A stretch of 55,596 bases of DNA, taken from Clostridia bacterium (lineage in GTDB: Bacteria; Bacillota; Clostridia; Christensenellales; Aristaeellaceae). The stretch lies in contig JAGBFR010000050.1 in assembly GCA_017936375.1 (NCBI GenBank), forward strand, positions 1-55,596, in the 5' to 3' direction. The notes under the pieces were generated by a model that ran no database searches, was not told where the DNA came from, and saw only the letters and a program-made list of their open reading frames with translations. Below are positions 9,083 through 50,536 of this stretch, in pieces (the first letter of the stretch is position 1; each line of letters opens with the position of its first letter). Position numbers and translations under genes: made by a program.

Positions 9083-11239
9083 ATGAAGAGACTCATTGCG
9101 CTTCTCCTCATCTGCCTGCTGGCGGTTCCGGCTGCAGCCTTCGCCGACGACGGCACGTTCACTGCCGCCGCCCCGGGCTTCTCCAGCGATGTGACCGTCA
9201 CCCTCACCATCGCCGAGGGCAAGATCACCGAGGCTGTGATTGACGCTGCGGGCGAGACCGAGGCCATCGGCGGCGCCGCTGCCGAAACCCTTGCCGCCCA
9301 GCTCGTCGCCGCCGGCTCTGCCGAGATCGACGGCGTCGCGGGCGCGACCGTCACCACCACCGCCGTCAAGGCCGCTGCTGCGAATGCCCTCGCGCAGGCT
9401 GCCGGCACTGCGGGCGAAAAGGCCGCTGTCGCGGACGGCACCTATGCCGGCACCGCCTCCAGCTTTGGCCTGCTCAGCCAGATGACCTGTGAGACCACCT
9501 TCGAGGGCGGCAAGATCACGGGCATCACCGTCACCAAGGAAAGCGACAGCGCCACGGGCGAGTGGTTCGCCTGCGCGCAGGAGCTGCTGATCCCGCGCAT
9601 TCTGGAAAGCCAGTCCCTCGCGGTTGACTCCATCTCCGGCGCGACCTCTTCCTCCAATGCGATCAAGGCCTGCGTGGCTGCGGCGATCGACGCTGCCGGC
9701 GGCCAGAGCGCGCAGTGGTACACCGAGGTCGAAAAGAAGACCGACGTGGTCACGCTCGAAGGCTACGACGTCATCGTCGTGGGCATGGGCGGCTCCGGCG
9801 TGCTCTCCTACTGCGCCGCCGCCGAGCAGGGCGCGACGGTGTTCGGCATTGAGACCGCGGGCAAGATCGGCGGCAACTCCGTGTGCACCTACGGCCCGAT
9901 GGCCCTCAACAGCGAATACCTGAAGAACCTCTACAACAACGGCGAGGACTACATCAACGCCGACGACGTGTTCGCCGTGTGGATGGAGTATGTCGGCAGC
10001 AACGAAAAGGAAGACATCATCCGCAAGGCCGTCTACAACTCCGGCTCCGCGCTTGACTACTATGTTGAGAAGTTCGGCTTCGAATTCACCGGTATGGGCA
10101 TGCTCGGTTCCTTCGCCGTGCCCGAGTGGACCAAGCTGTGGACCGTCTACACCCCGGACAACGGCGCGTGGAACGTCCTCGGCCCGAACAAGACCTATCA
10201 GTTCACCCGCGCGCTGGACATCGCCAACGCCATGAACGAAAAGAATCAGTACATGACCGAGCTGACCGCCACCACCCTGATTTTTGACGAGGCGGGCAAG
10301 GTCATCGGCGTGAACGCCGAGTACTACGACGGCACCCAGTACGCCATCTACGGCGACGCCGTGATCCTGGCGACCGGCGGCTTCCTCGGCAATGACGAGA
10401 TGATGACCCAGTACCTCGGCAATCCGGTCAACACCATCGGCGTGACCACCTGCGACGGCACCGGCATCAAGATGGGCATCTCCGCCGGCGGCGCCACCTA
10501 CATGATGGGCACCCTGCCGATGGTCCACATCTCTCAGGTCGCCAACATCATCCGCAACGATGACCTGACCGCCGACCAGAAGGCCATCCTCTCCGCGCTG
10601 GCCCTGACCACCGATCAGCTGATGATCACCACCGAGGGCAATGTCTGGGGCAACGTGAACCAGAGCGGCACGCAGAACGAGGGCATCAGCGTGGAGATCG
10701 TCTTCGCGCCGGAATACCGCTATTACGTCGTCTACACGCAGGAGCAGATCGACGCCATCCGCGAGACCGGTCTGACCCCGGCGCAGGCGATGTCCTCCTC
10801 CATGTTCATGGGTCAGGGCGGCACGCTGCCGGCCGCCGGCACGCCGGTCGCCGACATTGACGTCATCCTCTCCGTGGGCGAGGCGTACGGCAACGTCGTC
10901 AAGGGCGAGAGCATCGCGGCGCTGGCTGCGGGCATCGGCTGCGACGAGGCCAACCTCACCGCTGCGCTGGGCGGCGTGGAGACCACCTACTATGCCGTGA
11001 CCTGCAACTCCTACGCGTACGCGACCGTCGGCGGCCTTGACGTCGATGTGAACATGAACGTGCTGCGCGAGGACGGCACCGCCATCGAGAATCTCTTCGC
11101 CGTCGGTCAGGATTCCGAGGGCGTCGGCAATGTGGACGGCAAGGCCTACACCCCGTGGGGCGGCCAGGCGCAGAGTTGGACCTTCGTCTCCGGCGAGATC
11201 GCAGGCAAGCAGGCTGCCGCTTACAGCACCGCCAAGTAA
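9083..11239 (+). CDS. secreted flavinylated reductase FR1 (two FMN-binding domains plus FAD domain)
   Basis: 718 residues: a signal peptide (MKRLIALLLICLLAVPAAAFA), two FMN-binding domains with flavinylation-type motifs (AGAT, T89; SGAT, T188), and an FAD-binding-2 domain from about 226, with the dinucleotide motif VVGMGGSG and ETAGKIGGNS. FMN attached to the threonines by an ApbE transferase (not in this window) would relay electrons to FAD. Fumarate-reductase-type proteins of this build work outside the membrane. Here the usual HHTMGG is replaced by YATVGG, and the NRLGGNA arginine motif by KAYTPWGGQA, so fumarate is unlikely. Closest in the window is FR2. Start follows GGAGG; a terminator makes it a one-gene unit. 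Confidence 0.88.
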   Translation: MKRLIALLLICLLAVPAAAFADDGTFTAAAPGFSSDVTVTLTIAEGKITEAVIDAAGETEAIGGAAAETLAAQLVAAGSAEIDGVAGATVTTTAVKAAAANALAQAAGTAGEKAAVADGTYAGTASSFGLLSQMTCETTFEGGKITGITVTKESDSATGEWFACAQELLIPRILESQSLAVDSISGATSSSNAIKACVAAAIDAAGGQSAQWYTEVEKKTDVVTLEGYDVIVVGMGGSGVLSYCAAAEQGATVFGIETAGKIGGNSVCTYGPMALNSEYLKNLYNNGEDYINADDVFAVWMEYVGSNEKEDIIRKAVYNSGSALDYYVEKFGFEFTGMGMLGSFAVPEWTKLWTVYTPDNGAWNVLGPNKTYQFTRALDIANAMNEKNQYMTELTATTLIFDEAGKVIGVNAEYYDGTQYAIYGDAVILATGGFLGNDEMMTQYLGNPVNTIGVTTCDGTGIKMGISAGGATYMMGTLPMVHISQVANIIRNDDLTADQKAILSALALTTDQLMITTEGNVWGNVNQSGTQNEGISVEIVFAPEYRYYVVYTQEQIDAIRETGLTPAQAMSSSMFMGQGGTLPAAGTPVADIDVILSVGEAYGNVVKGESIAALAAGIGCDEANLTAALGGVETTYYAVTCNSYAYATVGGLDVDVNMNVLREDGTAIENLFAVGQDSEGVGNVDGKAYTPWGGQAQSWTFVSGEIAGKQAAAYSTAK

Positions 11240-11253
11240 TCCGTCATTTTCCC

Positions 11254-11283
11254 GGGAGCAGGAAACCCCTGCTCCCCTTTTTT
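11254..11283 (+). terminator. terminator after FR1
   Basis: A GGGAGCAGG stem against CCTGCTCCC with a short AAAC-type loop, followed by CTTTTTTT. Confidence 0.88.
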
Positions 11284-11470
11284 ATCCCACAAAAAAAGCA
11301 CCGTATCCCGAGCCGTCACGCTCCATACGGTGCTTTTTCCTGTTGTAGAGTTTTGCGCTTTCCTTTTTCTTCGTCACCGGGCTTACGTCGCCCCAGGTCG
11401 CGCGGCGCGCCCTGTCCGCCTCGCGGCGCTGGCGCTTGGACATCTTCTCATACGGGACAAACTTTTCCAT
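11282..11470 (-). CDS. small basic conserved clostridial protein
   Basis: A 62-residue, strongly basic protein beginning MEKFVPYEKMSKRQRREADR, with WGDVSPVTKKKES in the middle. I recognise this layout (FVPYEK-S, then W-G-NPVT) as a small conserved protein of Firmicutes without known function. The Arg/Lys content suggests nucleic-acid or ribosome binding, which is inference. The start follows GGAGG by eight bases. The last 16 codons or so coincide with the transcription terminator, so the C-terminus (SGYGAFFVG) is encoded by the hairpin and its T-run. Confidence 0.78.
   Translation of the reverse strand: MEKFVPYEKMSKRQRREADRARRATWGDVSPVTKKKESAKLYNRKKHRMERDGSGYGAFFVG
11291..11338 (-). terminator. 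terminator embedded in the 3' end of the small basic gene
   Basis: Perfect 14-bp arms (AAAAAGCACCGTAT and ATACGGTGCTTTTT) around an 18-base loop. On the minus strand the distal arm runs into seven T. On the plus strand it also ends in five T, so it may work both ways. Confidence 0.85.
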
Positions 11471-11501
11471 ATCATGTACCTCCTTGTCTGTCGGTAAGTA
11501 T

Positions 11502-11530
11502 ATTATACCATACTTTGCATATTTTTTCAA
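11502..11530 (-). promoter_or_regulatory. promoter of the small basic protein gene
   Basis: Minus-strand TTGAAA (11525-11530), a 17-bp spacer and TATAAT (11502-11507), about 30 bp before the start codon. Confidence 0.8.
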
Positions 11531-11559
11531 ATTGCGCCGTCGTGCAGCCCTGCTGCCGC

Positions 11560-11588
11560 TTGTGAGCGGGCGCCGTTTCATGTATAAT
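11560..11588 (+). promoter_or_regulatory. promoter of the 74-residue protein gene
   Basis: TTGTGA (11560-11565), a 17-bp spacer and TATAAT (11583-11588), 34 bp before the start codon. Confidence 0.7.
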
Positions 11589-11622
11589 AAGCCTACGACA
11601 TAACGAAAGGACGGTATCCCCC

Positions 11623-11847
11623 ATGGACATTCAGAAGATCATCACCGACGCCGTGAAGAAGCTCAGCGAAAACGAGGACCTGTGCAGGGCCTTCATGAAG
11701 AACCCCGTCGAGGTGCTGGAAAAGAAGCTGGGCATCGACCTGCCCGAGGATCAGATCAATCCGGTCATCGACGCCATCAAGGCGAAGATCAAGGTCGACG
11801 ACGCGCTGGAATTCGCCGGCAAGCTCAAGGGCCTCCTCGGCAAGTAA
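11623..11847 (+). CDS. small Nif11-leader-like protein
   Basis: A 74-residue helical protein starting MDIQKIITDAVKKLSENEDL, with the central pattern FMKNPVEVLEKKLGIDLPEDQINPVIDAIKAKI. The layout (an amphipathic helix, F-x-(K/N)-(D/N)-P, then a long helix with LGIDLPEDQ) recalls the Nif11 and nitrile-hydratase-like leader families, and similar small proteins occur in many Clostridia. It lacks the double-Gly cleavage site and core peptide of a RiPP precursor, and no maturase is near, so it may be a stand-alone protein of unknown role. It has its own promoter and terminator. Confidence 0.8.
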   Translation: MDIQKIITDAVKKLSENEDLCRAFMKNPVEVLEKKLGIDLPEDQINPVIDAIKAKIKVDDALEFAGKLKGLLGK

Positions 11848-11866
11848 GCCGCTATATACAGACGAT

Positions 11867-11914
11867 AACACCCCGATCCGCCATGCAAAGCGCATGAGGA
11901 ACGGGGTGTTTCTG
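11867..11914 (+). terminator. hairpin between converging genes
   Basis: A nine-pair stem (AACACCCCG against CGGGGTGTT) closes an inner CATGC/GCATG hairpin. The T-run is weak. It lies between the 74-residue gene and the end of yifB, 8 bp before the yifB stop codon. Confidence 0.65.
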
Positions 11915-11921
11915 TATGCTT

Positions 11922-13463: not shown

Positions 13464-13544
13464 GGCCCTCTCCTCCTGTGCATAGAACTTCTTTTACCAT
13501 TCTACCCGTTCCCGGCCGGAAAATCAACCCGTGCGCATTTGCTG

Positions 13545-13573
13545 TTGCCCGATTCGCCCGCATGCGGTATACT
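13545..13573 (+). promoter_or_regulatory. promoter of the GNAT acetyltransferase gene
   Basis: TTGCCC (13545-13550), a 17-bp spacer and TATACT (13568-13573). Confidence 0.7.
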
Positions 13574-13606
13574 GTTTCCATCAAAGGAAAAAGGCGGGAT
13601 TCCACC

Positions 13607-14110: not shown

Positions 14111-14132
14111 TCCCCATAAAACCAAAAAAGAT

Positions 14133-14170
14133 CAGGCGGCGTCATGGTTTCCCATGACGCCGCCTGTTTT
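14133..14170. terminator. bidirectional terminator between GNAT gene and FR2
   Basis: A 15-bp perfect stem (CAGGCGGCGTCATGG against CCATGACGCCGCCTG) with a four-base TTTC loop. T-rich sequence follows on the plus strand, and a run complementary to AAAAAAG lies on the minus strand, so it should stop both converging transcripts. Confidence 0.92.
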
Positions 14171-14199
14171 ATTCCCTTATGCGTTAAGCGCAGGCAGGA

Positions 14200-16524
14200 T
14201 TACTGCAGGCTCTCCGCGATGTAGCCGCCGACGAGACGGCCGCTGGTGAAGGCCCAGCCCATCGCCGCGCCGCCGTAGGTGACGTACGCCTTGGTCTCGG
14301 AGAAGAGCACGCCCATGCTGTCCGTACCAACAGCGTACAGGCCCTTGATCGGGGTCTCGCCGTCGGTGGTCAGGACCTGGAGCTTCTCGTTGACGTCGAG
14401 CGCGCCGCAGGTGGAGTAGCAGTAGGAGGAGCCAACGATGCCGTAGTACGGCGCGCCGGTGACCTTCTTGAGGTACTTCTCAGCCTTGCCGAACTCAACG
14501 TCAACACCGGCCTCGCAGTACTCGTTATAGGTGGCGACGGTCGCCTCCAGGGTCGCCGGATCCATGCCCATCTTCTCGGCAAGCTCAGCGAGGGTGTCCG
14601 CCTTGTAGACGTAGCCCGCGTCGATGGCCAGCTGGAGCACTTCCTCAGCCTTGTCCATCGGGACGCCGGCCGGGATGCTGGTGCCGTAGCCAACATAGTT
14701 GGTGGACGGGCCATACGGAGTCTCCTCGAAGCCCGCGGTGATCAGCTGCTGAACCTGATCGTTGCCCCAGATGCTGTAGAAGTGCGGGCCAGAGATCCAC
14801 GGGTTGAACATGGAGACGTCGGTCTCCGCCGTGAAGCGCTTGGCATTGGCGTCAACCGCCAGAGAGTTGGAGGAAATCGCCATGTTCAGCGGGATATCCG
14901 CCTGAGACCAGTAAGCCGGACGGCCCGGGGCCAGACCAGCCTTGCCCTCGACGATCACCGTCTCGTAGCCCGGGATGGTGCCGTCGACGCCGCCGACGTG
15001 AACCATCGGCGCAACGCTCATGTTGTAGGTGCCGGCGCCATTGACGATCGCAGACTCGATCATCTTGCCGTCGTTCTGATGCATACCGAAGAGCTTCCAC
15101 TCGCCCTTAAGCGGGAAGTAGGTGTTCTCCAGGTACTTCTCTTCCATCTCGCCGCTGCCGGCAAAGCCGCCGGTGGCCAGGACAACAGCCTTCGCGTTGA
15201 TCACGTATTCCTTGCCGTTGACCATGCTGCGCGCCTTGGCGCCAACAACAGCACCGGTCTCGTCCAGGATCAGATCATAGGCCTCGGTCTCGAGCATGTA
15301 CTTGCCGCCCAGATCGGTGGTGAAGCGGTTCATCGCCTCGGCGAAGAAGCCCTCGGTCAGCTGCTTGCCGCCGGAGAGCGGGGTGTAGGCCGCCCAGACA
15401 TTGCCGGCGAAGCCGCTGGCCGTGTCAAACTGGAAGCCATACTGGGTGAGCCAGTCGTCGGTGTAGCCGCTCTCGTCGAGCATCAGGCGGACCATTTCTT
15501 CCTTCGCCTGCTGCACACCTTCTTCATTGGTGGTGTACTCAAGCCAGCTCTGATAGAGCGCCTCCTTGTCGATCAGATCCTCGCCAGCCTTCTTGGTGAC
15601 GACCTGCTTGGCAACCGGATCGTTCCAGTTCTCGATCTCCGCAGCAACCTGGCTGGGGACGTTGATGGCCATCGGGCCGCTGGTCAGGACCGCGTTGCCG
15701 CCCCACTTGGCCGCCTTCTCGATGGCCAGGACGGAGAGACCCTGCTCGGCAGAGCTGATCGCGGAAGCGAGGCCCGCGCCGCCAAGGCCGACAACCAGGA
15801 CGTCCGCGGACAGCACTTCGACTTCCTCAGACTGGGGGATCTGGCGATAGAACGCGCTCACGTCGGACGCCTCGCCGCCGGCAGCGACGATCGCCTGAAT
15901 CAGCGCCTCTTCAACCGCCTGACGCACGCCGTTGCTCGTCGCAGTCGCACCGCAGACAGCGTCCACGGAGACGGACTGGTACTCCAGCATGCGCGGGACC
16001 AGCGTGCTGATCACGGTCTCAACAAACGCCTTCGTGTCGGAGGTCTCGTCCTGCTTGACCTCGATGGACTCGATGCGGTTCTCGCTGACGGTCACAGCAA
16101 CCGGAACCGGCTCGCAGGGCCTGAAGCCCAGGCCAGCGCCAGTATAGGTGCCCGGAGCCATGGTGACTTCCTTCTCACCGGAGACGCCCATCGCCTGGTC
16201 CAGGCAGTCCTGAACGGCCATGCGGATCGCCTTGCTGGTGAAGGTCGCGCCGGAAATGGCAGCCACATCGGCAGTCTGCTGCTCGATGATCATGCCCGGC
16301 AGCTTGTCAAGCGCATTGCTGCCAATGCCGTCCGTCTCCTCCTCGCCGACAACCTGCACGTCGAGGATCTTCTGCTCGTCAACGGTCACAACCGCCACGA
16401 CATTGCCGCCGAAGCCGGCCGCAGCCGCCTCGTACGTGCCCGCCTGGTAGAGCGCCGCAGTTTCCGCGCTGGCGCACGTCATGAGCATGCACAGCGCAAG
16501 AATCAGACTCAGAATGTTCTTCAT
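14200..16524 (-). CDS. secreted flavinylated reductase FR2 (two FMN-binding domains plus FAD domain)
   Basis: 774 residues: a signal peptide (MKNILSLILALCMLMTCASA), two FMN-binding domains with flavinylation threonines T94 (SGAT) and T194 (CGAT), and an FAD-binding-2 domain from about 240 (VLVVGLGGAGLAS, EKAAKWGGNAV). Expected to act outside the membrane as a terminal reductase fed by flavin electron transfer. Like FR1 it lacks the fumarate reductase signatures: YSTCGALDV stands for HHTMGG and KAYVTYGGAA for the NRLGGNA arginine motif. The real start is the ATG with AAGGAAGG upstream; the open frame extends far upstream into lysR without support. A LysR gene lies directly upstream, with a candidate operator. 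Confidence 0.88.
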   Translation of the reverse strand: MKNILSLILALCMLMTCASAETAALYQAGTYEAAAAGFGGNVVAVVTVDEQKILDVQVVGEEETDGIGSNALDKLPGMIIEQQTADVAAISGATFTSKAIRMAVQDCLDQAMGVSGEKEVTMAPGTYTGAGLGFRPCEPVPVAVTVSENRIESIEVKQDETSDTKAFVETVISTLVPRMLEYQSVSVDAVCGATATSNGVRQAVEEALIQAIVAAGGEASDVSAFYRQIPQSEEVEVLSADVLVVGLGGAGLASAISSAEQGLSVLAIEKAAKWGGNAVLTSGPMAINVPSQVAAEIENWNDPVAKQVVTKKAGEDLIDKEALYQSWLEYTTNEEGVQQAKEEMVRLMLDESGYTDDWLTQYGFQFDTASGFAGNVWAAYTPLSGGKQLTEGFFAEAMNRFTTDLGGKYMLETEAYDLILDETGAVVGAKARSMVNGKEYVINAKAVVLATGGFAGSGEMEEKYLENTYFPLKGEWKLFGMHQNDGKMIESAIVNGAGTYNMSVAPMVHVGGVDGTIPGYETVIVEGKAGLAPGRPAYWSQADIPLNMAISSNSLAVDANAKRFTAETDVSMFNPWISGPHFYSIWGNDQVQQLITAGFEETPYGPSTNYVGYGTSIPAGVPMDKAEEVLQLAIDAGYVYKADTLAELAEKMGMDPATLEATVATYNEYCEAGVDVEFGKAEKYLKKVTGAPYYGIVGSSYCYSTCGALDVNEKLQVLTTDGETPIKGLYAVGTDSMGVLFSETKAYVTYGGAAMGWAFTSGRLVGGYIAESLQ

Positions 16525-16576
16525 ACGATTCTTCCTTCCTTTGGAAATATTGAGGGTTTTCACCCTTCTTGCCATC

Positions 16577-16605
16577 AGTATACCGTCCGGCTTGTGAAAA
16601 AGCAA
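16577..16605 (-). promoter_or_regulatory. promoter of FR2
   Basis: Minus-strand TTGCTT (16600-16605), a 17-bp spacer and TATACT (16577-16582). It lies in the 86-bp gap between lysR and FR2. Confidence 0.8.
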
Positions 16606-16610
16606 ACGAT

Positions 16611-17492
16611 TTATTCTGCTCGCGTCATCACTAATAGTGATGACAGTGCCTCTATTCTGTCTTCGTTGGCATTCCCTTTTGCCCACATCAGGCACACGCT
16701 GCTCCGGCGCGCATCCTGAACTTCCTTGTAGATAATCCCCGGATGCGGGCGGATCACGCTCTTTACGCCAAGCGATATCCCATAGCCGGCCGCAACCATC
16801 GTCTCAATACAGTTCTGCGAGGCCGCATAGGCATAGACCCTCGCCGGAATACCGTCGCTGATCATCCGCTTGACCGTCTGCCTGTTCTCATCGCCGGAAA
16901 ACAGGATCATCGGATCCTCTGATAGCTGCTGCATGCAGACCTTCTCCTCGCCGGAGAGCCTGTGCCCCAGCGGCAGCATGGCGTACACCGGCTCGTCGCA
17001 GATCCTGCGGATCTGCAGCCAGTCCCGTCCGTCCTCCGCGTCTTCATGCCGGATGGACACCAGACAGTCCAGTTTGCCCTCGTGCAGCTCAGAATAGAGC
17101 TTCTGCCGCAGCCCGCTGCTGAGGATGACGCGCGTATCCAGATACGCCCTGCGGAATGCACCGAGCGCCAGCGGCAGCTCGTTGCGCAGCAGATTGCCGT
17201 AGCAGCCGATGCGCAGCTGGCTGACATAGCTGTTCTTCGCCTGGTCGATGATGTCGCGGGTGATGTCCACCTGCTCGAGCAGGCGGCGCGCCTCGTTGAC
17301 CATGATTTCGCCCGCAGGCGTCAGCCGCAGCCCCCTGTTCGTCCGCTCAAAGAGCAGCACGTCCAGCTCCTTTTCCAGCGCCGTGATCTGCTGGCTCATC
17401 GCCGACTGGACAATGCAGCACGCATCCGCCGCCTTCGTGAAGTTCAGATGCGTGGCCGCCGCCAGGAAATATTTCAATTGACGCAGCTCCAT
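16611..17492 (-). CDS. LysR family transcriptional regulator
   Basis: A 293-residue LysR-type regulator. The N-terminal winged helix-turn-helix (MELRQLKYFLAAATHLNFTKAADACCIVQSAMSQQI... to about residue 60) is followed by a two-lobe effector domain (about 90-290). It lies 16 bp downstream of uvrC and 86 bp upstream of FR2 on the same strand. A perfect palindrome of LysR-box type sits in its own last codons, centred near -64 of the FR2 promoter, so it most likely activates FR2 in response to that enzyme's substrate. The ribosome site (AGAGGAATAAAT) is the second copy of a 14-bp tandem duplication. Confidence 0.92.
   Translation of the reverse strand: MELRQLKYFLAAATHLNFTKAADACCIVQSAMSQQITALEKELDVLLFERTNRGLRLTPAGEIMVNEARRLLEQVDITRDIIDQAKNSYVSQLRIGCYGNLLRNELPLALGAFRRAYLDTRVILSSGLRQKLYSELHEGKLDCLVSIRHEDAEDGRDWLQIRRICDEPVYAMLPLGHRLSGEEKVCMQQLSEDPMILFSGDENRQTVKRMISDGIPARVYAYAASQNCIETMVAAGYGISLGVKSVIRPHPGIIYKEVQDARRSSVCLMWAKGNANEDRIEALSSLLVMTRAE
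16624..16644 (-). promoter_or_regulatory. LysR-type operator candidate for FR2
   Basis: Perfect 10-bp arms GTCATCACTA and TAGTGATGAC around one central base; the inner part fits the LysR T-N11-A rule (TCACTATTAGTGA). Its centre (16634) lies about 64 bp before the predicted FR2 start point near 16570, the usual position for the recognition site of LysR activators. It is inside the 3' end of the lysR coding region. Confidence 0.7.
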
Positions 17493-42608: not shown

Positions 42609-42683
42609 GGTTCCCCATGGCCATTCATTCGCCTCAAATTATTTCAAATCCCGTAATTTCTTAATCATTTCGTAATACTTTTA

Positions 42684-42713
42684 TTGACATGCTTTGCTCT
42701 CCCATGGTAAAAT
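42684..42713 (+). promoter_or_regulatory. promoter and structured leader of the Ig-repeat protein gene
   Basis: Consensus -35 TTGACA (42684-42689), an 18-bp spacer and TAAAAT (42708-42713). The 318-bp gap 42550-42867 holds the pckA terminator, this promoter and a leader of about 145 nt with at least two hairpins: CCGCG/CGCGG near 42762 and a long GCCTGACG/CGTGCAGGC hairpin near 42790-42820. I cannot match the leader to a known riboswitch. Confidence 0.7.
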
Positions 42714-42867
42714 ATCCAATGGAAGGTCATGCCACAAACCATATCAGACAGTCCCCCGCGAGCTGCACGCGGCCCTGCCGGCATCCCTCCAAGGCCTGAC
42801 GATTCCGTGCAGGCTTTGCCGCTTTTTAGCAGCCCGCTTTTTCCCAGTCTGATTACAGGAGGTCACC

Positions 42868-45800
42868 ATGAACAAGATCGCAAAGCGCATCCTGCTTACC
42901 GCCGTGCTGGCCGCGCTGCTGTGCTGCTTCGCCCTGCCCGCGTTTGCCGCGAAGGACATGGGCGCAGGCTTCTCCTGCAGCCTCAATCCGGTCACGACCG
43001 GCTCTAAGCCGACGTTCTCCTGGGCTCTGACTCCGTCCGAGGCCTACTCCAGGATCAACGTCTCTATCTATTCCATCACGGACGACGTCACGACCGTACT
43101 CTGGTCCAATGACAATGCCAATCCGTCCGACAGCGTCATGCTTGAAATCACGGACAGCGAGAAGCTCTATGCTTCCGCCTCCATCTTCTATACAAGCGGC
43201 AATTATGAGCGCCTGAAGAGCAACACGATCAAGGTCACCATCCCCGTGACGGCGATCACCTTTGCCTCCACCACGCTCAACATCATCGAGGGCGAGACAA
43301 GCAGCGTCCCGGCCGTGACCATCACGCCGTCCAACGCCACTAACCCCGATGTTTCCTACTATTCCGAGGATGATTCCATCGCGGATGTCGACGCTGTGAC
43401 GGGCGAGGTCACCGCTGTCTCCGAAGGCGAGACCGTGATCTATGCCGTGGCGGACGACGGCTTCGGCGCCGAGGCGGAGCTGTACGTCTCCGTCCTGCCG
43501 GTCTCTGCGCCCATCGCGCTGAAGATCACCGCCCAGCCGCAGGACGTCGCCGTGGAAGACGGTGAAACCTTCACCCTCTCCGTGCGCGCGCAGGGCTCCG
43601 GCCTGTCCTATCAGTGGTTCGTGCGCGAGCCGGGCAAGACCGGCTACTCCGACGCCTTCTGCAATACGGCCGATCTCACCGAGACCATGACCGCCGCGCT
43701 TGACGGCTGCGAGTATTACTGCCTCGTGACCGACGCGTACAGCAGCTTCGTCGAGTCCGCCTCTGCGACGGTGACCCTGATCCCGGATCTGAAGATCACC
43801 TCCCAGCCCAAGGACGTCATGGCGAAGGCGGGCGAGACCGTCTCCTTCACCGTCGAGGCCTCCGGCAGCGGCCTGGCCTATCGCTGGTATGTGAAGACCC
43901 CGACCACCAACCGCTTCGTGGACACCAAGAACATCTCCGCCAACTACACCTTTGAGATGCTCGAGTCCCTCGACGGCAACCAGTATTACTGCATCGTCAC
44001 CGATGCAAACGGCAACACCGTCCAGTCCAACACCGTCACCCTGCGCCTGCCCAAGCCGGTCTTCATCAAGACCCAGCCGAAGAACACCTCCGCCGCCGCC
44101 GGCGAGAGCGTGACCGTCTCTGTCGAGGCCGTCGGCGAAGGCCTGACCTACAAGTGGTACTACAAGAACCCGGGCGACGTTGACTTCCTCTACACCTCCA
44201 CCTTCACCGGCAATACCTACACCATGACCATGAGCGAGTCCCGCGACGGCCGCCAGGTCTACTGTGTGGTCACCGATAAGGACGGCAATTCCGTCACCTC
44301 CGACACCGTCACCCTGAGCATGAAGAGCTACGCGCGCATCACCAAGCAGCCGCAGAATGCCATGGCTGCGCTCGGCGCCAGTGTCAGCGTCAGCGTTGAA
44401 GCCGTCGGCGAAGGCCTGACCTACGAGTGGTTCTACAAGAACAAGGGCGACACTGCCTTCACCTATACCTCCACCTATACCACCAACACCTACACCATGA
44501 CGATGACCAACGCCCGCGCGGGCCGTGAGGTCTACTGTATCGTCACCGACGTGTACGGCAACTTCGTCAAGTCCAACACCGTCGTGCTGGATATCCTCCA
44601 GCCGGTCTATATCCGCAAGCAGCCGGAGAGCTCCTTCGTCTACAGCCCGGGCGACGTCGCTTCCGTCACGGTTGACGCCGTGGGCGACGGCCTGACCTAC
44701 GAGTGGTACTGCAAGCTGGCCAACGCCGTGTCCTTCACGAAGCTGCCGGCCTTCACCGGCAACACCTACTCCGTGACGATGAACGCCTACGACCACAACA
44801 GCCGCGTCTACTGCATCATCACGGACAGCCAGGGCAACTATGTGCAGTCCAACATCGTCACCCTCGGCTTCTATGAGACCGCGTATATCCATGCGATCTA
44901 CGGCGGCAAGGCCTTCATCGGCAGCCGTGCGACCATCACCCTCGACGCCGAGGGCAACGACCTGACCTACAAGTGGTACTATAAGGATCCGGGCGCTGCG
45001 GCCTATACGCTCTCCAGCGTCACCGGCGATACCTACTCCCTCGTGCTGACGGAGGCGCGCGTGGGCCGTCAGGTCTACTGCGTGATCACCGATAAGTACG
45101 GCTATTCCGCCACCTCTGACATCGTCACCCTCGGTGAGCCGCAGCCTGTCTACATCAAGGTGCAGCCCACCAGCGTCAGCGCCTTCGCAGGCGAGCAGGC
45201 CAAGGTCTCCTTCACCGCAATCGGCGACGAGCTGGTCTACCAGTGGTACTTCAGGCCGGCGGGCGAGGTTAACTTCGTCTACACCGATACCTTCGAGGAG
45301 AACTACTACTACACCACCATGTCCGAGGCCCGCGACGGCCGTCAGGTTTACTGCGTGGTCACCGATAAGTACGGCAACACCGCGCAGACCAATACCGTCA
45401 CCCTCGATATGAAGCACCGCGCTGCGATCACCGAGGAGCAGAAGCCTCACACCATCACCGCCGCTGCGGGCGAGCGCTTCTCCATCACCATCAAGGCCAC
45501 GGGCGATGGCGTCACCTACCAGTGGTATGTCAAGAACAAGGGCGCGTCCGAGTTCACCGCTGTTGCCGGCCAGAATGGCTCCGTCTTCAACGCGACCATG
45601 AGCACCGCGCTCGACGGCGCGAGGGTGAAGTGCATCGTCACCGACGAATACGGCACCACCGCCGAAACAGAGTACGACTATAAGCTCAGCGTCGTCACGC
45701 CGGTGGAGATCACCACCCAGCCCACGGACGCTGCCGCTGCTGTCAACACGAAAGCGACCGTCAAGCTGACCGCCAACGGCGAAGGCCTGACCTACAAGTG

Positions 45801-47322
45801 GTACTTCAAGGACAAGAAGGCGACCAGCTTCAAGCTGACGACCACCTTCATCGGCGACACCTATGAAGTTACCATGAATGATACCCGTGACGGCCGTCAG
45901 GTCTACTGCGTCGTCACCGACGAGCACGGCTATCAGGTGACCTCCAACACCGTCACCCTGAGCCTCAAGGAGACCGTCAAGATCACCGCCCAGCCGCAGA
46001 CCACCACTGCCCATGACGGCGAGCGCGTGAGCGTCACCATCACCGCGACGGGCGACGGCCTCAAGTACACCTGGTACGTCAAGGAGCCGGGCGAGAGCGG
46101 CTACACCGCCTACAACAACATCGGCACCGCCTACAGCATGGTCGTCAATGACTACACCACCGGCACCATCGTCTACTGTGTGGTTACCGATAAGTACGGC
46201 AATTCCGAGGAATCCAACAAGGTCTCTGTCCGCAAGATTGTGCCGGTTTACATCGACAGCCAGACGGAAGACGACGTCAAGGTCATGCTCGGCGAGAAGG
46301 CCACGGTCACCGTCAACGCCATCGGCGACGGCCTCAAGTACGAGTGGTACTTCAAGGACGCCAACGCTTCCTCCTTCGCCAAGACCAAGACCTTCACCGG
46401 CGACACCTACTCCGTCGATCTGACGGAGGCGCGCGTGGGCCGTCAGGTCTACTGTGTGATCACCGACAAGTACGCCAACAAGGTGACCTCCAACGTGGTC
46501 ACCCTCAAGCGCGACTATACGCTGAAGATCCTCAAGCAGCCGGTCAATAAGACTGTCAACGAGGGCAAGACCGCGACCGTCACCGTCGAGGTGAACGGCG
46601 CCGGCCTGACCTATCAGTGGTACGTCATCAAGGCGGGCACGGTCGAGGTCACCAAGTCCTCCAATACCACCAGCAAGTACAGCGTCGTCATGAATGATGA
46701 GCGCAGCGGCAACCAGGTCTTCTGCGTCATCACCGACAAGAACGGCGACAGCGTGACCTCCGATACCGTCACGCTGAAGATGCCCATCGCCATCAAGGTC
46801 CAGCCCGTGAGCGTGAAGGTGAAGAGCGGCGAGACCGCCTCAGTCTCCGTGAATGCGACTGGTACCGGCCTCAAGTACAAGTGGTACTACAAGAATCCGG
46901 GCGACAGCAGCTACAAGGCCAGCTCCGTCACCGGCGACACCTACTCCGTCACCATGAACGAGGACCGCGACGGCCGCAAGGTCTACTGCCTGATCACCGA
47001 CTCCAAGGGCAATCAGGTCAAGTCCAACGCCGTCTCCCTGACGATGAAGGTTGAGCTGGGCATCACCGCCCAGCCCAAGAATGTGACCGTTGCCAGCGGC
47101 CAGAAGGCCACTGTCTCCATCAAGGCCACGGGCGTCGATCTGACCTATCAGTGGTACGTCAAGGCGGCCGGCACCGGCACCTTCCTCAAGTCCTCCATCA
47201 CCTCTTCCAAGTACAGCGTCACGATGAACTCTGCCCGCAACGGCAACCAGGTCTACTGCGTCGTCACCGACAAGTACGGCAATACCGTCAAGAGTAAGAC
47301 CGTCACGCTGAGCATGGAGTAA
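42868..47322 (+). CDS. large secreted protein with a BIG2-like domain and fourteen Ig-like repeats
   Basis: 1484 residues. A signal peptide (MNKIAKRILLTAVLAALLCCFALPAFA) is followed by a unique region to about 125, a BIG2-like domain to about 212 (VTAITFASTTLNIIEGETS), and then fourteen repeats of about 90 residues from about 215 to the end. Each repeat has the pattern I-x-x-QP-x-x-V-A-x-x-G-E, G-L-x-Y-x-W-Y-x-K, and R-x-G-R-x-V-Y-C-V-V-T-D-x-x-G-N, a typical Ig-like outline. The YC cysteine occurs in every repeat but its usual Ig partner is absent. There is no LPXTG or SLH signal. It is probably a surface or matrix adhesin. Start follows AGGAGG. Confidence 0.93.
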   Translation: MNKIAKRILLTAVLAALLCCFALPAFAAKDMGAGFSCSLNPVTTGSKPTFSWALTPSEAYSRINVSIYSITDDVTTVLWSNDNANPSDSVMLEITDSEKLYASASIFYTSGNYERLKSNTIKVTIPVTAITFASTTLNIIEGETSSVPAVTITPSNATNPDVSYYSEDDSIADVDAVTGEVTAVSEGETVIYAVADDGFGAEAELYVSVLPVSAPIALKITAQPQDVAVEDGETFTLSVRAQGSGLSYQWFVREPGKTGYSDAFCNTADLTETMTAALDGCEYYCLVTDAYSSFVESASATVTLIPDLKITSQPKDVMAKAGETVSFTVEASGSGLAYRWYVKTPTTNRFVDTKNISANYTFEMLESLDGNQYYCIVTDANGNTVQSNTVTLRLPKPVFIKTQPKNTSAAAGESVTVSVEAVGEGLTYKWYYKNPGDVDFLYTSTFTGNTYTMTMSESRDGRQVYCVVTDKDGNSVTSDTVTLSMKSYARITKQPQNAMAALGASVSVSVEAVGEGLTYEWFYKNKGDTAFTYTSTYTTNTYTMTMTNARAGREVYCIVTDVYGNFVKSNTVVLDILQPVYIRKQPESSFVYSPGDVASVTVDAVGDGLTYEWYCKLANAVSFTKLPAFTGNTYSVTMNAYDHNSRVYCIITDSQGNYVQSNIVTLGFYETAYIHAIYGGKAFIGSRATITLDAEGNDLTYKWYYKDPGAAAYTLSSVTGDTYSLVLTEARVGRQVYCVITDKYGYSATSDIVTLGEPQPVYIKVQPTSVSAFAGEQAKVSFTAIGDELVYQWYFRPAGEVNFVYTDTFEENYYYTTMSEARDGRQVYCVVTDKYGNTAQTNTVTLDMKHRAAITEEQKPHTITAAAGERFSITIKATGDGVTYQWYVKNKGASEFTAVAGQNGSVFNATMSTALDGARVKCIVTDEYGTTAETEYDYKLSVVTPVEITTQPTDAAAAVNTKATVKLTANGEGLTYKWYFKDKKATSFKLTTTFIGDTYEVTMNDTRDGRQVYCVVTDEHGYQVTSNTVTLSLKETVKITAQPQTTTAHDGERVSVTITATGDGLKYTWYVKEPGESGYTAYNNIGTAYSMVVNDYTTGTIVYCVVTDKYGNSEESNKVSVRKIVPVYIDSQTEDDVKVMLGEKATVTVNAIGDGLKYEWYFKDANASSFAKTKTFTGDTYSVDLTEARVGRQVYCVITDKYANKVTSNVVTLKRDYTLKILKQPVNKTVNEGKTATVTVEVNGAGLTYQWYVIKAGTVEVTKSSNTTSKYSVVMNDERSGNQVFCVITDKNGDSVTSDTVTLKMPIAIKVQPVSVKVKSGETASVSVNATGTGLKYKWYYKNPGDSSYKASSVTGDTYSVTMNEDRDGRKVYCLITDSKGNQVKSNAVSLTMKVELGITAQPKNVTVASGQKATVSIKATGVDLTYQWYVKAAGTGTFLKSSITSSKYSVTMNSARNGNQVYCVVTDKYGNTVKSKTVTLSME
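43510..47319 (+). repeat. fourteen tandem repeats of about 270 bp coding for Ig-like domains
   Basis: The units begin with words for ITxQP and end with TVTL. Nucleotide identity between units is moderate, with conserved stretches such as CAGGTCTACTG before GTCACCGA, so the array is old rather than freshly amplified, apart from a few closer neighbours. Confidence 0.9.
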
Positions 47323-47350
47323 TCCCTCTCGCAGGCACACTTACACAAGC

Positions 47351-47394
47351 AGCAGCCCCCGCCCGGATCGCTCCGGCAGCGGGGGCTGCTTTTA
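47351..47394 (+). terminator. terminator after the Ig-repeat gene
   Basis: Stem AGCAGCCCCCGC against GCGGGGGCTGCT, with an inner CCGG/CCGG hairpin in the loop, then TTTTA. Confidence 0.88.
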
Positions 47395-47407
47395 CGTATA
47401 TTGACAG

Positions 47408-47444
47408 AAAAAGGCGCGCCCGTCAAAGCGCGCCTCTGTTTTTA
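47408..47444. terminator. bidirectional terminator overlapping the merR stop codon
   Basis: A seven-pair core (GGCGCGC/GCGCGCC), with AAAAA on the left and TCTGTTTTT on the right, can work for both converging transcripts and includes the end of the MerR gene. Confidence 0.82.
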
Positions 47445-48257
47445 TAGTCCTCCGACCTCGATGCGCATGGAGATCCGGTACATCGGATTCTCCTCGCCGA
47501 CGGGCGAATAGACGATCCATCCATAGAAATCATCCAGCGGGATCAGATTGTGCTGGGTGATATACGCAAAGAAGGGCTCAAGCGCCGCAAAGGGGATCCG
47601 CATCGGATCCGGCGTCTCGATCATCATCTGCAGGCAGGACGTCACGGCGGAGTACTGCATGGGTTCGCGATAGGTATCGCTGATCGCGTCAAAATGATTC
47701 TTGAACAGGCCGATACCGATATCCGCCGGGCAGCAGCCGTCCTCCCTCTGTCCCATGTCCTTCATCCTCACCCGGACGACGGAATACACATGCGGCGCGC
47801 AGGTCATCCAGTGCTGGAAGATGCCCGCTGTATTTTGATGCGCCGCCACCTCCGGATCGGACAGAAAGAGGCGATAGGTGCCCACCATCCGCGCCGGCTT
47901 GACCGCATCGCCGCCCTCGCATGCCTGCGCGAAGGCATTCTCGTGGAGCCTGATGCGCCCGAGCATGTTATGCAGATTCTCAATCTGAGACTCAATCTCA
48001 TGCTTTCGCTGTGTCAGGCTGGCAAGCATATCCTCGCACGCCACATTTCCCTCGCGCGAGGGCATGGACGAGAGCGGAATGCCAAACGCCGTCATCTGCC
48101 GCAGCTGGATGAGCCTGAGAATATCCTGCGAGGCATAGGACCGGTAATTATTCTTCTGATCACGCTGCGTGCAGAGCACGCCGATGCTGTCATAATAGCG
48201 CAGCGTCGCGCTGGGCACGCCGGTCAGGCGCTCAAAGTCGCTGATTCTGTACTTCAT
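47442..48257 (-). CDS. MerR family transcriptional regulator
   Basis: 271 residues. The N-terminal MerR winged helix (MKYRISDFERLTGVPSATLRYYDSIGVL, with R-Y-Y-D and a Y-R-S-Y-wing) spans about residues 1-70, followed by a coiled coil (about 78-115, LTQRKHEIESQIENLHNMLGRI) and an effector-binding domain of about 150 residues with GyrI-like appearance (YSVVRVRMKDMGQREDGCCPADIG). It is divergent from FR3, whose promoter has the 19-bp spacer typical of MerR activation. Its inducer would be the FR3 substrate or a related compound. The start has GGGGGAGAGG upstream. Confidence 0.92.
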   Translation of the reverse strand: MKYRISDFERLTGVPSATLRYYDSIGVLCTQRDQKNNYRSYASQDILRLIQLRQMTAFGIPLSSMPSREGNVACEDMLASLTQRKHEIESQIENLHNMLGRIRLHENAFAQACEGGDAVKPARMVGTYRLFLSDPEVAAHQNTAGIFQHWMTCAPHVYSVVRVRMKDMGQREDGCCPADIGIGLFKNHFDAISDTYREPMQYSAVTSCLQMMIETPDPMRIPFAALEPFFAYITQHNLIPLDDFYGWIVYSPVGEENPMYRISMRIEVGGL

Positions 48258-48281
48258 TTCACCTCTCCCCCTTCCAAATTG

Positions 48282-48310
48282 AGTATAGCATAACAAGCGA
48301 ATGCAGACAA
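48282..48310 (-). promoter_or_regulatory. promoter of the merR gene
   Basis: Minus-strand TTGTCT (48305-48310), a 17-bp spacer and TATACT (48282-48287). Confidence 0.75.
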
Positions 48311-48324
48311 GTTCAAGCGAACTT
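48309..48324 (-). promoter_or_regulatory. inverted repeat over the merR -35 box
   Basis: AAGTTC-AAGC-GAACTT, perfect 6-bp arms and a 4-bp centre overlapping the merR -35 box; a likely autoregulatory or shared operator. Confidence 0.5.
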
Positions 48325-48411
48325 CATAGTTCACCGTATTTAGGGACAAAAACAGCCCGTCCGGAACGTCTTTCTTTTGTCAATCCCCCTCATTCCGGCA
48401 CGATTATCCGA

Positions 48412-48442
48412 TTGACCTTCAAGCATACTTTAATCATATAAT
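48412..48442 (+). promoter_or_regulatory. FR3 promoter with MerR-type 19-bp spacer
   Basis: TTGACC (48412-48417) and TATAAT (48437-48442) are separated by 19 bp. The spacer contains the imperfect dyad TTCAAG-CATA-CTTTAA. MerR activators bind such overlong spacers and twist the DNA. A small GCCCGT/ACGGGC hairpin follows in the leader (about 48455-48469). Confidence 0.8.
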
Positions 48443-48493
48443 AAGAATAACAAAGCCCGTGACACGGGCCGAATAAAGAAAGGACGTGGATCT

Positions 48494-50536
48494 ATGAAGA
48501 AGTTCCTCTCCATGCTGCTCGTCCTCGCGATGCTGCTGAGCCTTGGCGCTCAGGCTGTCGTCGCCGAGGCCGTGAAGGCGACCGGCTCTTCCCGCGCGAT
48601 GCAGGGCGACGTCGTCGCTGAGGTCACCATCGAGGACGGCAAGATCACCGCGATCGATCTTGTCCAGTACCCGGAGACCGGCAACATCACCGTCGTTGCC
48701 AAGGAAAGAATCCCCGCTCAGATCATTGAGCATCAGACGCTGGACGTCGATATCGCGACCGGCGCTACCTTCGCCAGCTACGCCATCATGGGCGCCGTCA
48801 AGAACGCTGTCAAGGCCTCCGGTCTTGAGATCGCTGCCCTGACGGCCGAGCCGTACCGTGCTCAGCCCGGCCCGGACGAGACCTGGGATACCGACGTGCT
48901 CGTTATGGGCGGCGGCGGCGCAGGCTTCGCGGCTGCCATCACCGCTGCTCAGGCCGGCGCGAAGGTCATCCTCATTGAGAAGAGCACCGTCTTCGGCGGC
49001 AACACCATGGTCGCCGGCGCTGCGTACAATGCGGTTGACCCCGATGCGCAGGGCGCGATGATCCTCACCCGCTCCCAGAAGGACACCATGGACGGCTACC
49101 TCGCGCTTGACCCGGCCGACCCGGCGCTCAAGTTCGACGTCTATCCGGAGTGGGCTGCCGTTCTGGAAGAGCTGAAGGCTGACATCACCGCCTTTTACGC
49201 TGCGAACGAAGGCAAGGAAGCCGGCGTCGATATGCCTGGCTTCGACTCCATTGCGCTGCATATGTGGCACTGCTACACCGGCGGCCTGCGCGAGATGAAC
49301 GACGGCAGCTTCATCGCGCCGAAGATCGAGCTCGCCCGCACGCTGGCCTCCAACTCCCTCGCCACCTTCGAGTGGATGGGCACCCTGGGCCTTGAGGCCT
49401 CCTACGGCGCCACCGCGAACTACGGCGGCTACCCGGGCCTGGGCACCGTTCTTGGCGCCATGTGGCCGCGTACCCACAGCTTCATGAGCGGCGCCGACCG
49501 CATCCCGCAGCTCGAGGCTGTCGCCGTTGAGAACGGCGTCACCGTCTACAAGGAGACTGCCGGTAAGGAACTGCTGGTCGACGAGACCGGCAAGGTCATC
49601 GGTGCGATCGCCCAGAAGGCGGACGGCACCAAGATCACCATCAACACCACCAAGGGCGTCGTCCTTGCGACCGGCGGCTACTGCGCCAACCCGGCCATGG
49701 TCAAGGAATACGACAAGTACTGGGGCGACGATCTGAGCGCGCACACCCTGTCCACCAACCTGGGCACCAACGAGGGCGACGGCATCCTGATGGCGCAGGC
49801 CATCGGCGCTGACGTCTTCGGCATGGAAGTCGCTCAGATGATGCCTTCCTCCTCCCCGGTGAAGGGCACCATGACCGACGGTATCTGGGCTGACGCTGCC
49901 GAGCAGATCTGGATCGACGGCAACGGCGACCGCTTCGTCAACGAGTATGCCGAGCGCGACGTGCTGGCCAAGTCCTCCCTGGCGCTTGAAAACGGCATCT
50001 TCTACATCATCTACGCCGGCCGCGGCGACATCTCCAAGCCCGATCAGAAGCTGACCGGTACCGACTACAATGGCCGCGTTGCGGGCATGGTCGAGGGCGG
50101 CCACATCTGGTACGGCGATACCCTCGCCGAGCTGGCTGAAGCCTCCAAGACCGCTGCTGCGGGCGTCGCTCCGGCTTTCTCCGAGGCGAAGCTGCGCGAG
50201 ACCATCGAAAAGTACAACACCTACGTCGCCAACCAGAAGGACGAAGACTTCGGCAAGGAAGTCCTCGCCGGCGCGATTGACATCGAAGCCATCGATGCGG
50301 ATCCGAACATGGGCATCTGCATCAGCCCGCGCAAGTCTTCCCTGCACCACACCATGGGCGGCCTGTGCATCAACACCGAGACCGAAGTCCTGAAGGCTGA
50401 CGGCACCAAGATCGAAGGCCTGTGGGCTGCGGGCGAGGTCACCGGCGGCGTGCATGCCGGCAACCGTCTGGGCGGCAACGCCATCGCCGACATCTTCACC
50501 TTCGGCCGTATCGCCGGCGCCAACGCTGCGAAGTAA
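48494..50536 (+). CDS. secreted flavinylated reductase FR3 (one FMN-binding domain plus FAD domain)
   Basis: 680 residues: a signal peptide (MKKFLSMLLVLAMLLSLGAQA), one FMN-binding domain with the flavinylation motif TGAT (T92), and a fumarate-reductase-like FAD-binding-2 domain (VLVMGGGGAGFAA from about 135, EKSTVFGGNT). Unlike FR1 and FR2 it keeps HHTMGGLCIN and GVHAGNRLGGNAIADIF, whose His and Arg bind carboxylates in fumarate reductases, and ERDV with the proton-donor Arg. It differs where fumarate reductases have Q-x-H-P (here MMPSSSP) and in the proton relay (DGIW for EAVR). So a related unsaturated acid such as urocanate, cinnamate or another enoate is more likely. AAAGGACG precedes the ATG. 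Confidence 0.9.
   Translation: MKKFLSMLLVLAMLLSLGAQAVVAEAVKATGSSRAMQGDVVAEVTIEDGKITAIDLVQYPETGNITVVAKERIPAQIIEHQTLDVDIATGATFASYAIMGAVKNAVKASGLEIAALTAEPYRAQPGPDETWDTDVLVMGGGGAGFAAAITAAQAGAKVILIEKSTVFGGNTMVAGAAYNAVDPDAQGAMILTRSQKDTMDGYLALDPADPALKFDVYPEWAAVLEELKADITAFYAANEGKEAGVDMPGFDSIALHMWHCYTGGLREMNDGSFIAPKIELARTLASNSLATFEWMGTLGLEASYGATANYGGYPGLGTVLGAMWPRTHSFMSGADRIPQLEAVAVENGVTVYKETAGKELLVDETGKVIGAIAQKADGTKITINTTKGVVLATGGYCANPAMVKEYDKYWGDDLSAHTLSTNLGTNEGDGILMAQAIGADVFGMEVAQMMPSSSPVKGTMTDGIWADAAEQIWIDGNGDRFVNEYAERDVLAKSSLALENGIFYIIYAGRGDISKPDQKLTGTDYNGRVAGMVEGGHIWYGDTLAELAEASKTAAAGVAPAFSEAKLRETIEKYNTYVANQKDEDFGKEVLAGAIDIEAIDADPNMGICISPRKSSLHHTMGGLCINTETEVLKADGTKIEGLWAAGEVTGGVHAGNRLGGNAIADIFTFGRIAGANAAK

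Follow-up and report, generated by a model that had tools for sequence, protein, structure and literature searches.

Secreted flavinylated reductases and a multi-flavin RnfG in a Clostridia genome: a candidate quinone-free electron path

Introduction

Flavin-based extracellular electron transfer of Listeria employs Ndh2, demethylmenaquinone, PplA and FmnB, and UbiA-superfamily prenyltransferases serve the synthesis of ubiquinone and menaquinone. Promoters of the MerR type with a 19-bp spacer are likewise a known class. Here, three genes for secreted flavinylated reductases, FR1, FR2 and FR3, are described from a 55.6-kb stretch of DNA (the window, contig C72) of the Clostridia bacterium assembly GCA_017936375.1, together with the genes elsewhere in the genome that may supply their products with electrons. 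The assembly consists of 75 contigs with 2.85 Mb in total and is 80.9% complete. An earlier note on the window had proposed that the three proteins serve different extracellular electron acceptors under separate control.

Multi-flavin RnfG proteins, some of them in Christensenellales with a multihaem domain, are described in PMC8238504, where an RnfG side path to outside acceptors is also proposed; a quinone-free link from RnfG to reductases is not made in the excerpts of that paper. Such a link between an RnfG array and reductases was not found in our literature search either, most subscription papers being outside its coverage. In Methanosarcina acetivorans, the multihaem cytochrome MmcA is located on RNF (cited in PMC12174285).

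Results

The flavinylated reductases of the window and the genome

Domain scan and alignment identified FR1 (9083..11239, plus strand, 718 amino acids) and FR2 (14200..16524, minus strand, 774 amino acids) as genes of secreted flavoproteins with two flavin mononucleotide (FMN)-binding domains and one flavin adenine dinucleotide (FAD)-binding domain. FR3 (48494..50536, plus strand, 680 amino acids), for which a structural model was used as well, encodes a secreted reductase with a single FMN domain and an FAD domain. The FMN_bind domains are situated at 9176-9391 and 9470-9688 in FR1, at 16198-16416 and 15901-16110 in FR2, and at 48602-48814 in FR3; the corresponding FAD_binding_2 domains cover 9767-11128, 14317-15804 and 48893-50482. 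Pfam's curated cut-offs were applied to both families and were exceeded by both in all three proteins. The open reading frame (ORF) of FR2 as scanned extended to 16695, and the start Met of the signal peptide is at 16524. Sec-type N-termini were recognized in FR1, FR2 and FR3; here and below, signal peptides were classed by eye and not by a predictor.

The acceptor motifs are AGAT and SGAT in FR1, SGAT and CGAT in FR2, and TGAT in FR3. All of them end in Thr and agree with the ApbE motif D-x-x-[S/T]-G-A-[S/T] or a close variant of it, position 4 being Ala or Cys in two of the five domains. Judged by these motifs, the terminal Thr of all five should take FMN. FR1, FR2 and FR3 are real genes that newly join a known kind of enzyme, and the export signals, FMN sites and FAD domain that had been claimed for them were borne out in each.

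The genome contains 34 FMN_bind domains, all of which (34/34) have Thr or Ser at the acceptor column. When the FMN_bind and FAD_binding_2 matches were joined with ORFs, 21 FMN+FAD proteins resulted, including FR1-FR3 and one member, on C11, which is cut by the contig end; the search for further paralogues suggested in the earlier note was thus productive. Fifteen of the 21 have Sec and five have Tat signals, whereas the signal of C18_32983 was not judged, the printed stretch being too short. One ApbE match, with a lipoprotein-like start, was detected in the whole genome. It is located on contig C13, so the statement that the window holds no apbE was correct, and a joint absence of ApbE and of an electron input from the genome was not observed. 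The FMN_bind proteins outside the 21-protein set are an RnfG with seven domains and an exported 380-amino-acid protein (C4:9124-10266, L056) with one C-terminal FMN_bind domain and no other Pfam family, possibly a soluble flavin carrier. In the C28 reductase (L061:1627-3561), which has a divergent AraC regulator, the FMN_bind domain is C-terminal, and this sets it apart from the remaining 20.

The RNF operon and the proposed electron path

The single RnfD match of the genome adjoins the gene of the seven-domain RnfG in an rnfCDGEAB operon on the minus strand of C56. RnfC (5838-7391), RnfD (4866-5816) and RnfG (2465-4873, 802 amino acids, seven FMN_bind domains) were found by domain scan. RnfE (1868-2464) and RnfA (1280-1855) were told apart by gene order, and RnfB (187-1257) was assigned by gene order and Fe-S domains. 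The N-terminal FMN domain of RnfG has the motif GGAT, and the six further repeats have AGVT or SGVT.

The best explanation of FR1-FR3 that we can offer is that electrons pass from RNF through the RnfG flavin array to the secreted reductases without a quinone; we judge the case for it to be evenly balanced. RNF is proposed as the electron source because no quinone-making enzyme was found in the genome. Electrons of ferredoxin or reduced nicotinamide adenine dinucleotide (NADH) would move through the RNF membrane subunits to the first FMN of RnfG, then over the six further FMN domains of the same protein to the FMN domains of the reductases, and the covalent FMN domain of each reductase would deliver them to the FAD of its catalytic domain. 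Membrane quinone would take no part. FR1-FR3 would belong to a group of about 21 exported FAD oxidoreductases that carry ApbE-type FMN sites and act as interchangeable terminal reductases, and the acceptors would be small organic compounds outside the cell. Many of the reductases would be switched on by a regulator of their own when the acceptor is present, and in the case of FR3 the switch would be a MerR protein on a 19-bp-spacer promoter. The wider proposal, a quinone-free anaerobic respiration on extramembrane flavins in which RNF feeds an RnfG array of 5-9 FMN domains that acts as a common socket for secreted reductases, about twenty in number and each under its own regulation, is made tentatively, and we place it somewhat below even chance.

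No UbiA (PF01040) match was detected in this genome, which is 81% complete. Four of 25 genomes of the genus gave a match at E <= 0.001, two of them (G017 and G018) over the cut-off, leaving 23 of the 25 without UbiA at that level; all 14 control genomes were positive. A further 16 genomes, which include G000 and were selected by us for their FMN_bind number, were also scanned: 14 gave none and G103 and G171 each gave a match. UbiA was not found in the relatives G059, G041, G082, G121, G138 and G153, which are 96-99% complete; the 97% complete G059, assembled in 3 contigs, has an eight-domain RnfG, 19 FMN_bind domains and no UbiA match. The absence of UbiA carries little weight when taken from one 81% complete genome and more when taken from 23 of 25 genomes. 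The search for a membrane electron input, which the earlier note had called for, gave RNF with its multi-flavin RnfG as a candidate, but no UbiA for a quinone.

RnfG arrays in related genomes

RnfD was found in 20 of the 25 genus genomes, and two or more RnfG FMN domains were present in all 19 of those with a readable RnfG. The eight complete arrays of the genus have 7, 9, 6, 6, 5, 6, 5 and 6 domains. In 11 of the 19 (L074, L076, L078, L079, L082, L084, L085, L087, L088, L090 and L091) the contig ends inside rnfG, and the array lengths there are underestimates because the contigs stop within the gene; near-identical repeats would cause such breaks in short-read assembly. Among 11 genomes of the same order, RnfG had one domain in eight (in G026 as a split match), two in G035 and none in G037 and G039.

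A second rnf set comprised 20 stretches from 18 genomes. RnfG had eight domains in G059, three in G045 and at least two in G051, where the gene is cut, and a single domain in G131, G171, G094, G072, G055, G132 and both operons of G069. In G082, G138 and G153 the usual order is replaced by one in which an FMN_bind protein with five or six hits lies upstream of RnfD. G138 and G153 each have a second rnf operon, with one domain in its RnfG. G041 has a cut two-hit FMN_bind ORF upstream of RnfD, and in G121 RnfD and RnfG are fused, with one domain; within the rnf stretches read of G103 and G166 no FMN_bind ORF was found. Two kb from the fusion in G121, a genome of the window's family, lies a protein (L119:8134-11001) which has at least 956 amino acids and combines FMN_bind with cytochrome c552 (NrfA-like), a domain pairing that is possibly that of an RNF-linked flavin and haem reductase.

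Among 151 genomes of the order, 134 have 0-2 FMN_bind domains. Of the other 17, nine belong to family f1 (4-34 domains), two to f27 (14 and 38) and six to f4, f17 and f21 (3-6). The higher f27 value belongs to G051, outside the family of the window, with 38 FMN_bind domains in 2.1 Mb and an RnfG cut after the first domain; its expansion is possibly independent. The number of RnfG domains rises with that of FMN_bind domains elsewhere in the genome (Spearman 0.76, 24 genomes), a figure which is descriptive and not a test, as the rows were chosen by us, the genomes are related, and RnfG domains were counted by our own profile and the totals by Pfam. G026, G037, G039, G041, G051, G069, G082, G103, G121, G138, G153, G166 and the cut arrays were left out, and most genomes with a single FMN_bind domain are outside the comparison.

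This joint rise bears on another explanation, that FR1-FR3 are ordinary extracellular flavinylated reductases of the known kind and RNF is unconnected with them. The 3070 FMN-binding fumarate-reductase-like proteins in 1236 genomes and the multi-flavin RnfG proteins already described in PMC8238504 agree with it, but it leaves the missing UbiA and the joint expansion with RnfG unaccounted for, and we regard it as unlikely.

Repeats of nine complete arrays were compared within and between genomes. The mean likeness within the array of G000 was 0.82 against 0.59-0.73 to the others, and in G059 it was 0.77 (up to 1.00) against 0.52-0.59. Within- and between-array likeness was similar in G010, G013 and G018, and the closest genome to G011 (0.76) was nearer than its own array (0.74). 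Identity between the N-terminal RnfG domain and the repeats of the same array is 22-30%. The search pattern found the acceptor Thr in 48 of the 49 repeats; the remaining one, in G059, reads SGAT after Glu and not Asp. GV instead of GA is present in 29 of the 49. A change of array length by repeat gain and loss is a possible reading of these values, with somewhat less than an even chance as part of the quinone-free respiration.

Several results weigh against a path from RNF to the reductases. UbiA exceeds the cut-off in G017 and G018, both of which have RnfG arrays, and the matches of G103 and G171 add to this. At 81% completeness, the assembly could lack a quinone gene or some other electron input, and ready-made quinone may be taken up. 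UbiA was not found, but the search did not extend to NapH-like, MsrQ-like, PepSY-like, DsbD and NrfD inputs. Six of the seven RnfG motifs are AGVT or SGVT; according to a review (PMC12052999), an Ala-to-Val exchange at this motif place lowered flavinylation in a model substrate. No reductase gene was found in the 16 kb read around rnf. RnfD was not matched in five of the 25 genus genomes, G001, G002, G009, G014 and G015, which have 7, 27, 10, 9 and 7 FMN_bind domains, nor in G075 (71% complete), which has 14. G131 and G027 pair a single-domain RnfG with five and four FMN_bind domains elsewhere, and G021 has a six-domain RnfG with just three elsewhere. As a separate observation, G002 (92% complete, 8% contaminated, 410 contigs) may have another electron input or an assembly gap.

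Part of this evidence favours real reductases with another donor. The donor would be a membrane flavin oxidoreductase that escaped detection, a quinone of foreign origin or shuttles of free flavin, and the RnfG array would serve something else, for example metal reduction. The incomplete genome in which UbiA and RnfD were the inputs looked for, the five genus genomes without an RnfD match, the two with UbiA, G131 and G027, and the exported C4 protein as a conceivable carrier are all on its side. Against it stand the position of the only RnfD match beside the array gene, the six nearly complete relatives without UbiA, and the parallel increase of array length and FMN_bind number in 24 genomes. 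We consider another donor rather unlikely, though less so than an unconnected RNF.

Active sites and likely substrates

In UrdA, the substrate acid is held by Arg560, Arg411 and His520, and specificity depends in part on Tyr373, the counterpart of a His in Fcc3 (PMC7921117). By alignment, Arg488, His618 and Arg658 of FR3 match UrdA Arg411, His520 and Arg560, respectively. When FR3 was aligned with 21 of its 41 relatives, Arg488, His618, His619 and Arg658 did not vary in any of the 22 sequences, and Met450, which occupies the position of UrdA Tyr373 and Fcc3 His365, is kept in at least 90% of them. Asp467 aligns with UrdA Asp388, beside a gap of the pairwise alignment. The top match of the predicted FR3 model (mean predicted local distance difference test score, pLDDT, 84) in the PDB was urocanate reductase. 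These residues indicate that FR3 is probably an acid reductase.

FR1 and FR2 have other residues or gaps at the columns of UrdA Arg411, His520 and Arg560, and Val at that of Fcc3 His365. Judged by these columns, the UrdA/Fcc3 mechanism does not explain FR1 and FR2; they are without the acid-binding Arg/His set, and therefore unsaturated acids are unlikely as their substrates. A reduction of unsaturated acids such as urocanate and cinnamates is not supported for FR1 and FR2, which lack the acid-binding and protonating Arg and His of UrdA and Fcc3, and a function of all three as reductases of unsaturated acids was rejected, FR3 being the one of the three that keeps the set. The structure prediction of FR1 from three sequences had a mean pLDDT of 48 and was not used.

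The Arg560 column was aligned for the 21 reductases, 20 of which are readable since the C11 member is cut. Arg, together with HHTMGG, was present in five (FR3, C60, C69_21015, C71 and C23), Tyr in ten including FR1, Phe in one and Thr in one. FR2, C53 and C42_9775 also have Tyr if the gap is shifted, giving 13 Tyr-type proteins among the 20; the C-terminal loops of both FR1 and FR2 are of the Tyr type. A Tyr at this position is reminiscent of 3-ketosteroid dehydrogenases, which appear among the solved relatives of Tyr-type members, and by this analogy the loop hints at carbonyl-bearing substrates. It is possible, although we would put it below an even chance within the respiration proposed above, that many of the reductases, those of the Tyr type, serve acceptors other than unsaturated acids.

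The Tyr-type members could also be dehydrogenases, which is a further point against the outward path: FR1, FR2 and the others would oxidize outside substrates and pass the electrons into the flavin array and RNF. The lack of the UrdA/Fcc3 Arg and His in FR1 and FR2, the Tyr loop in 13 of 20 proteins and the solved 3-ketosteroid dehydrogenase relatives agree with this, but the best-scoring solved relatives of FR1, FR2, C37 and C45_4641 are fumarate or urocanate reductases. SaFMN3, one measured multi-flavin protein, has a redox potential of -184 mV (PMC10339131), well above that of ferredoxin, and feeding electrons into RNF would therefore be uphill. The dehydrogenase function is the least probable of the alternatives and in our view quite improbable.

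Regulatory wiring

A gene of a MerR-family regulator (47442..48296, minus strand, domain scan) is divergent from FR3, and the sequence and its relatives point to a MerR-type promoter, TTGACC-19-TATAAT, at 48412..48442 on the plus strand. A full-length divergent MerR (37-50% identity) was found in ten of 41 FR3 loci (L010-L017, L026 and L027), a weak co-directional one (18-24%) in seven (L028, L031, L035, L036, L043, L045 and L046), and a partial match in L040 and L049. Besides the window, 36 of these loci were scanned for spacers; L033 and L047-L050 were left out as short upstream, partial or distant. A 19-bp spacer was best or joint best in all 11 divergent cases (the window and ten loci), sole best in nine of them and weak in L026; the promoters of L010 and L011, and those of L012 and L013, are identical in sequence and hence not independent. 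The same spacer was best or joint best in 7/7 tandem-MerR loci (sole best in four) and in 8/19 other FR3 loci (sole best in four). A perfect spacer dyad was seen by eye in the tandem loci L031, L035, L043 and L045, and the seven tandem loci may represent a second arrangement of the same FR3-type control. Two other divergent-MerR reductases of the genome (C69_65951 and C52) have a 19-bp spacer and 11 of 12 consensus letters; at the C23 reductase, with a tandem MerR, a 19-bp-spacer promoter was not seen. The MerR gene and 19-bp-spacer promoter claimed for FR3 are thus confirmed as divergent and kept in relatives. That FR3-type reductases have repeatedly been placed under MerR control is a tentative part of the respiration proposal, somewhat under even probability.

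Regulators adjoining the reductases were MerR (4), LysR (3), TetR (2), AraC (1) and LytTR/GHKL two-component proteins (2), i.e. at least 12 of 21 reductases have one beside them, a lower bound as twenty neighbour proteins out of 42 flanks were scanned. Regulators were present in 12/42 reductase flanks vs 5/79 other genes (Fisher p = 0.0017). The control figure is a bound: no helix-turn-helix family had two or more members among the 79 genes, which come from the window and the other stretches read, and as single matches mostly do not show in that family count, one was allowed for each of five families. Given 21 paralogues, at least 12 of which have a neighbouring regulator, the modular set of acceptor enzymes suggested in the earlier note is likely.

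Upstream of FR1, a promoter-like site TTGTAA-18-TATACT (9004..9033, plus strand) was recognized from sequence only. It is followed by an inverted repeat (9033..9066, plus strand; repeat search and random copies) which begins at the final base of the -10-like box (9028-9033) and overlaps the expected transcription start. The repeat consists of two nested exact 7-nt arm pairs with one 1-nt bulge. When the 140 bp preceding FR1 were randomized 20,000 times, such nested repeats occurred in 4 of the copies, and one other of this kind, at 14133-14166, is present in the window. A dyad scan upstream of all 21 reductases relied on assumed gene starts, which are incorrect at least in C53, C18_32983, C45_19646 and C24, and it did not pick up the FR1 repeat with its bulge; the 20,000 random copies cover that repeat, and a further set of shuffles bears on that one sequence alone. 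The repeat is a likely operator, and the start-site palindrome noted earlier is real, but its core is found in none of 104 loci compared, which weakens an FR1 operator common to relatives. The upstream neighbours of FR1 are AzlC and AzlD, with no regulator. The nearest match of FR1, 40% identical, was present in one of 40 other genomes (E <= 1e-100) and has upstream a gene starting TetR-like (read by eye) and a different dyad. A second inverted repeat upstream of FR1 (8960-9000), near T-rich DNA, is perhaps the azlD terminator.

A LysR-family regulator gene (16611..17492, minus strand, domain scan) lies in tandem upstream of FR2. A 21-bp dyad, GTCATCACTATTAGTGATGAC (16624..16644, minus strand), inside the 3' end of the LysR gene and 100-120 bp ahead of the start codon of FR2, reached a score found in 0/200 random copies and is a possible operator. 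A LysR relative was absent from eight FR1/FR2-related loci (1.5-kb flanks), including the 65% relative of G017, which weakens LysR as a conserved FR2 controller. The gene and a candidate dyad of the LysR-operator pair proposed for FR2 are present, but the arrangement is tandem and not divergent.

Other features of the window

A single cluster of FR1, FR2 and FR3 was rejected, since unrelated scanned genes separate them, among which are a ComM-type Mg chelatase, UvrC, DGOK, PEPCK and a GH31-like protein. A tblastn search of the 41 loci related to FR3, with FR1 and FR2 as queries, found nothing at E <= 1e-40. Rfam and tRNA scans of the whole window gave no matches. The nested repeat at 14133-14166, directly past the FR2 3' end, is probably a terminator. 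Ahead of the MerR gene, 42868-47322 encodes a 1484-amino-acid protein with Ig-like and PKD-type matches, probably a surface protein. A 508-amino-acid protein (53241-54767) with zero Pfam matches is perhaps a solute-binding protein; it adjoins a binding-protein-dependent transport permease (54834-55520).

Among named records, those nearest to FR3 (75-79% identity) come from metagenome assemblies that bear the label Clostridia, Clostridiales or Christensenella; several of these are from ruminant guts, and the host is probably of a rumen or gut Clostridia lineage. Relatives with 62-72% identity occur in Spirochaetae or Spirochaetaceae records (L026, L047) and in Candidatus Rubneribacter (L038), which suggests a transfer of FR3-type reductases between phyla.

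Discussion

The finding is raised by its setting, in which a large reductase set, many regulators and an RNF with a flavin array come together without any indication of a quinone. If the path from RNF over RnfG to the reductases is true, gut and rumen-type bacteria would respire many organic compounds without a quinone, over a flavin chain beyond the membrane, and electron disposal in the rumen could be affected. The missing electron donor of the secreted flavinylated reductase class would be named and multi-flavin RnfG proteins would gain a role. The predicted electron transfer would be checkable with two purified proteins.

The three proteins share the signal peptide, FMN_bind domain with a GAT site and FAD_binding_2 domain of the Listeria fumarate reductase and Shewanella UrdA, whose class is treated in PMC8238504. 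FR3 resembles UrdA further in the kept carboxylate-handling residues and in the best PDB match of its model; unlike UrdA and Fcc3, it has Met at the Tyr373/His365 position. FR1 and FR2 differ from the UrdA class by two FMN domains and the absence of the Arg/His set. The occurrence of 21 such proteins in one genome where no quinone enzyme was found also differs from the known FMN-linked reductase class. The promoter of FR3 is like those of the MerR type in its 19-bp spacer, in the spacer dyad seen in several loci and in the divergent regulator gene, whereas its target, a flavinylated reductase, is unlike the known ones. ApbE-type flavinylation and surface flavoprotein carriers are shared with the flavin-based transfer of Listeria; Listeria uses a quinone, and UbiA was not found here. 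As in the multi-flavinylated RnfG proteins in the excerpts of PMC8238504, several FMN_bind domains are situated in the RnfG of an rnf operon; in contrast to these, the array stands beside a reductase repertoire and without UbiA, and 29 of 49 repeats have GVT and not GAT. Compared with MmcA on RNF, there is likewise an added multi-cofactor conduit that is expected to reach outside acceptors, but flavins replace the haems and the conduit is part of RnfG itself. The parts are known singly; the proposed quinone-free combination of a reductase set with an RnfG array is, within the literature searched, new.

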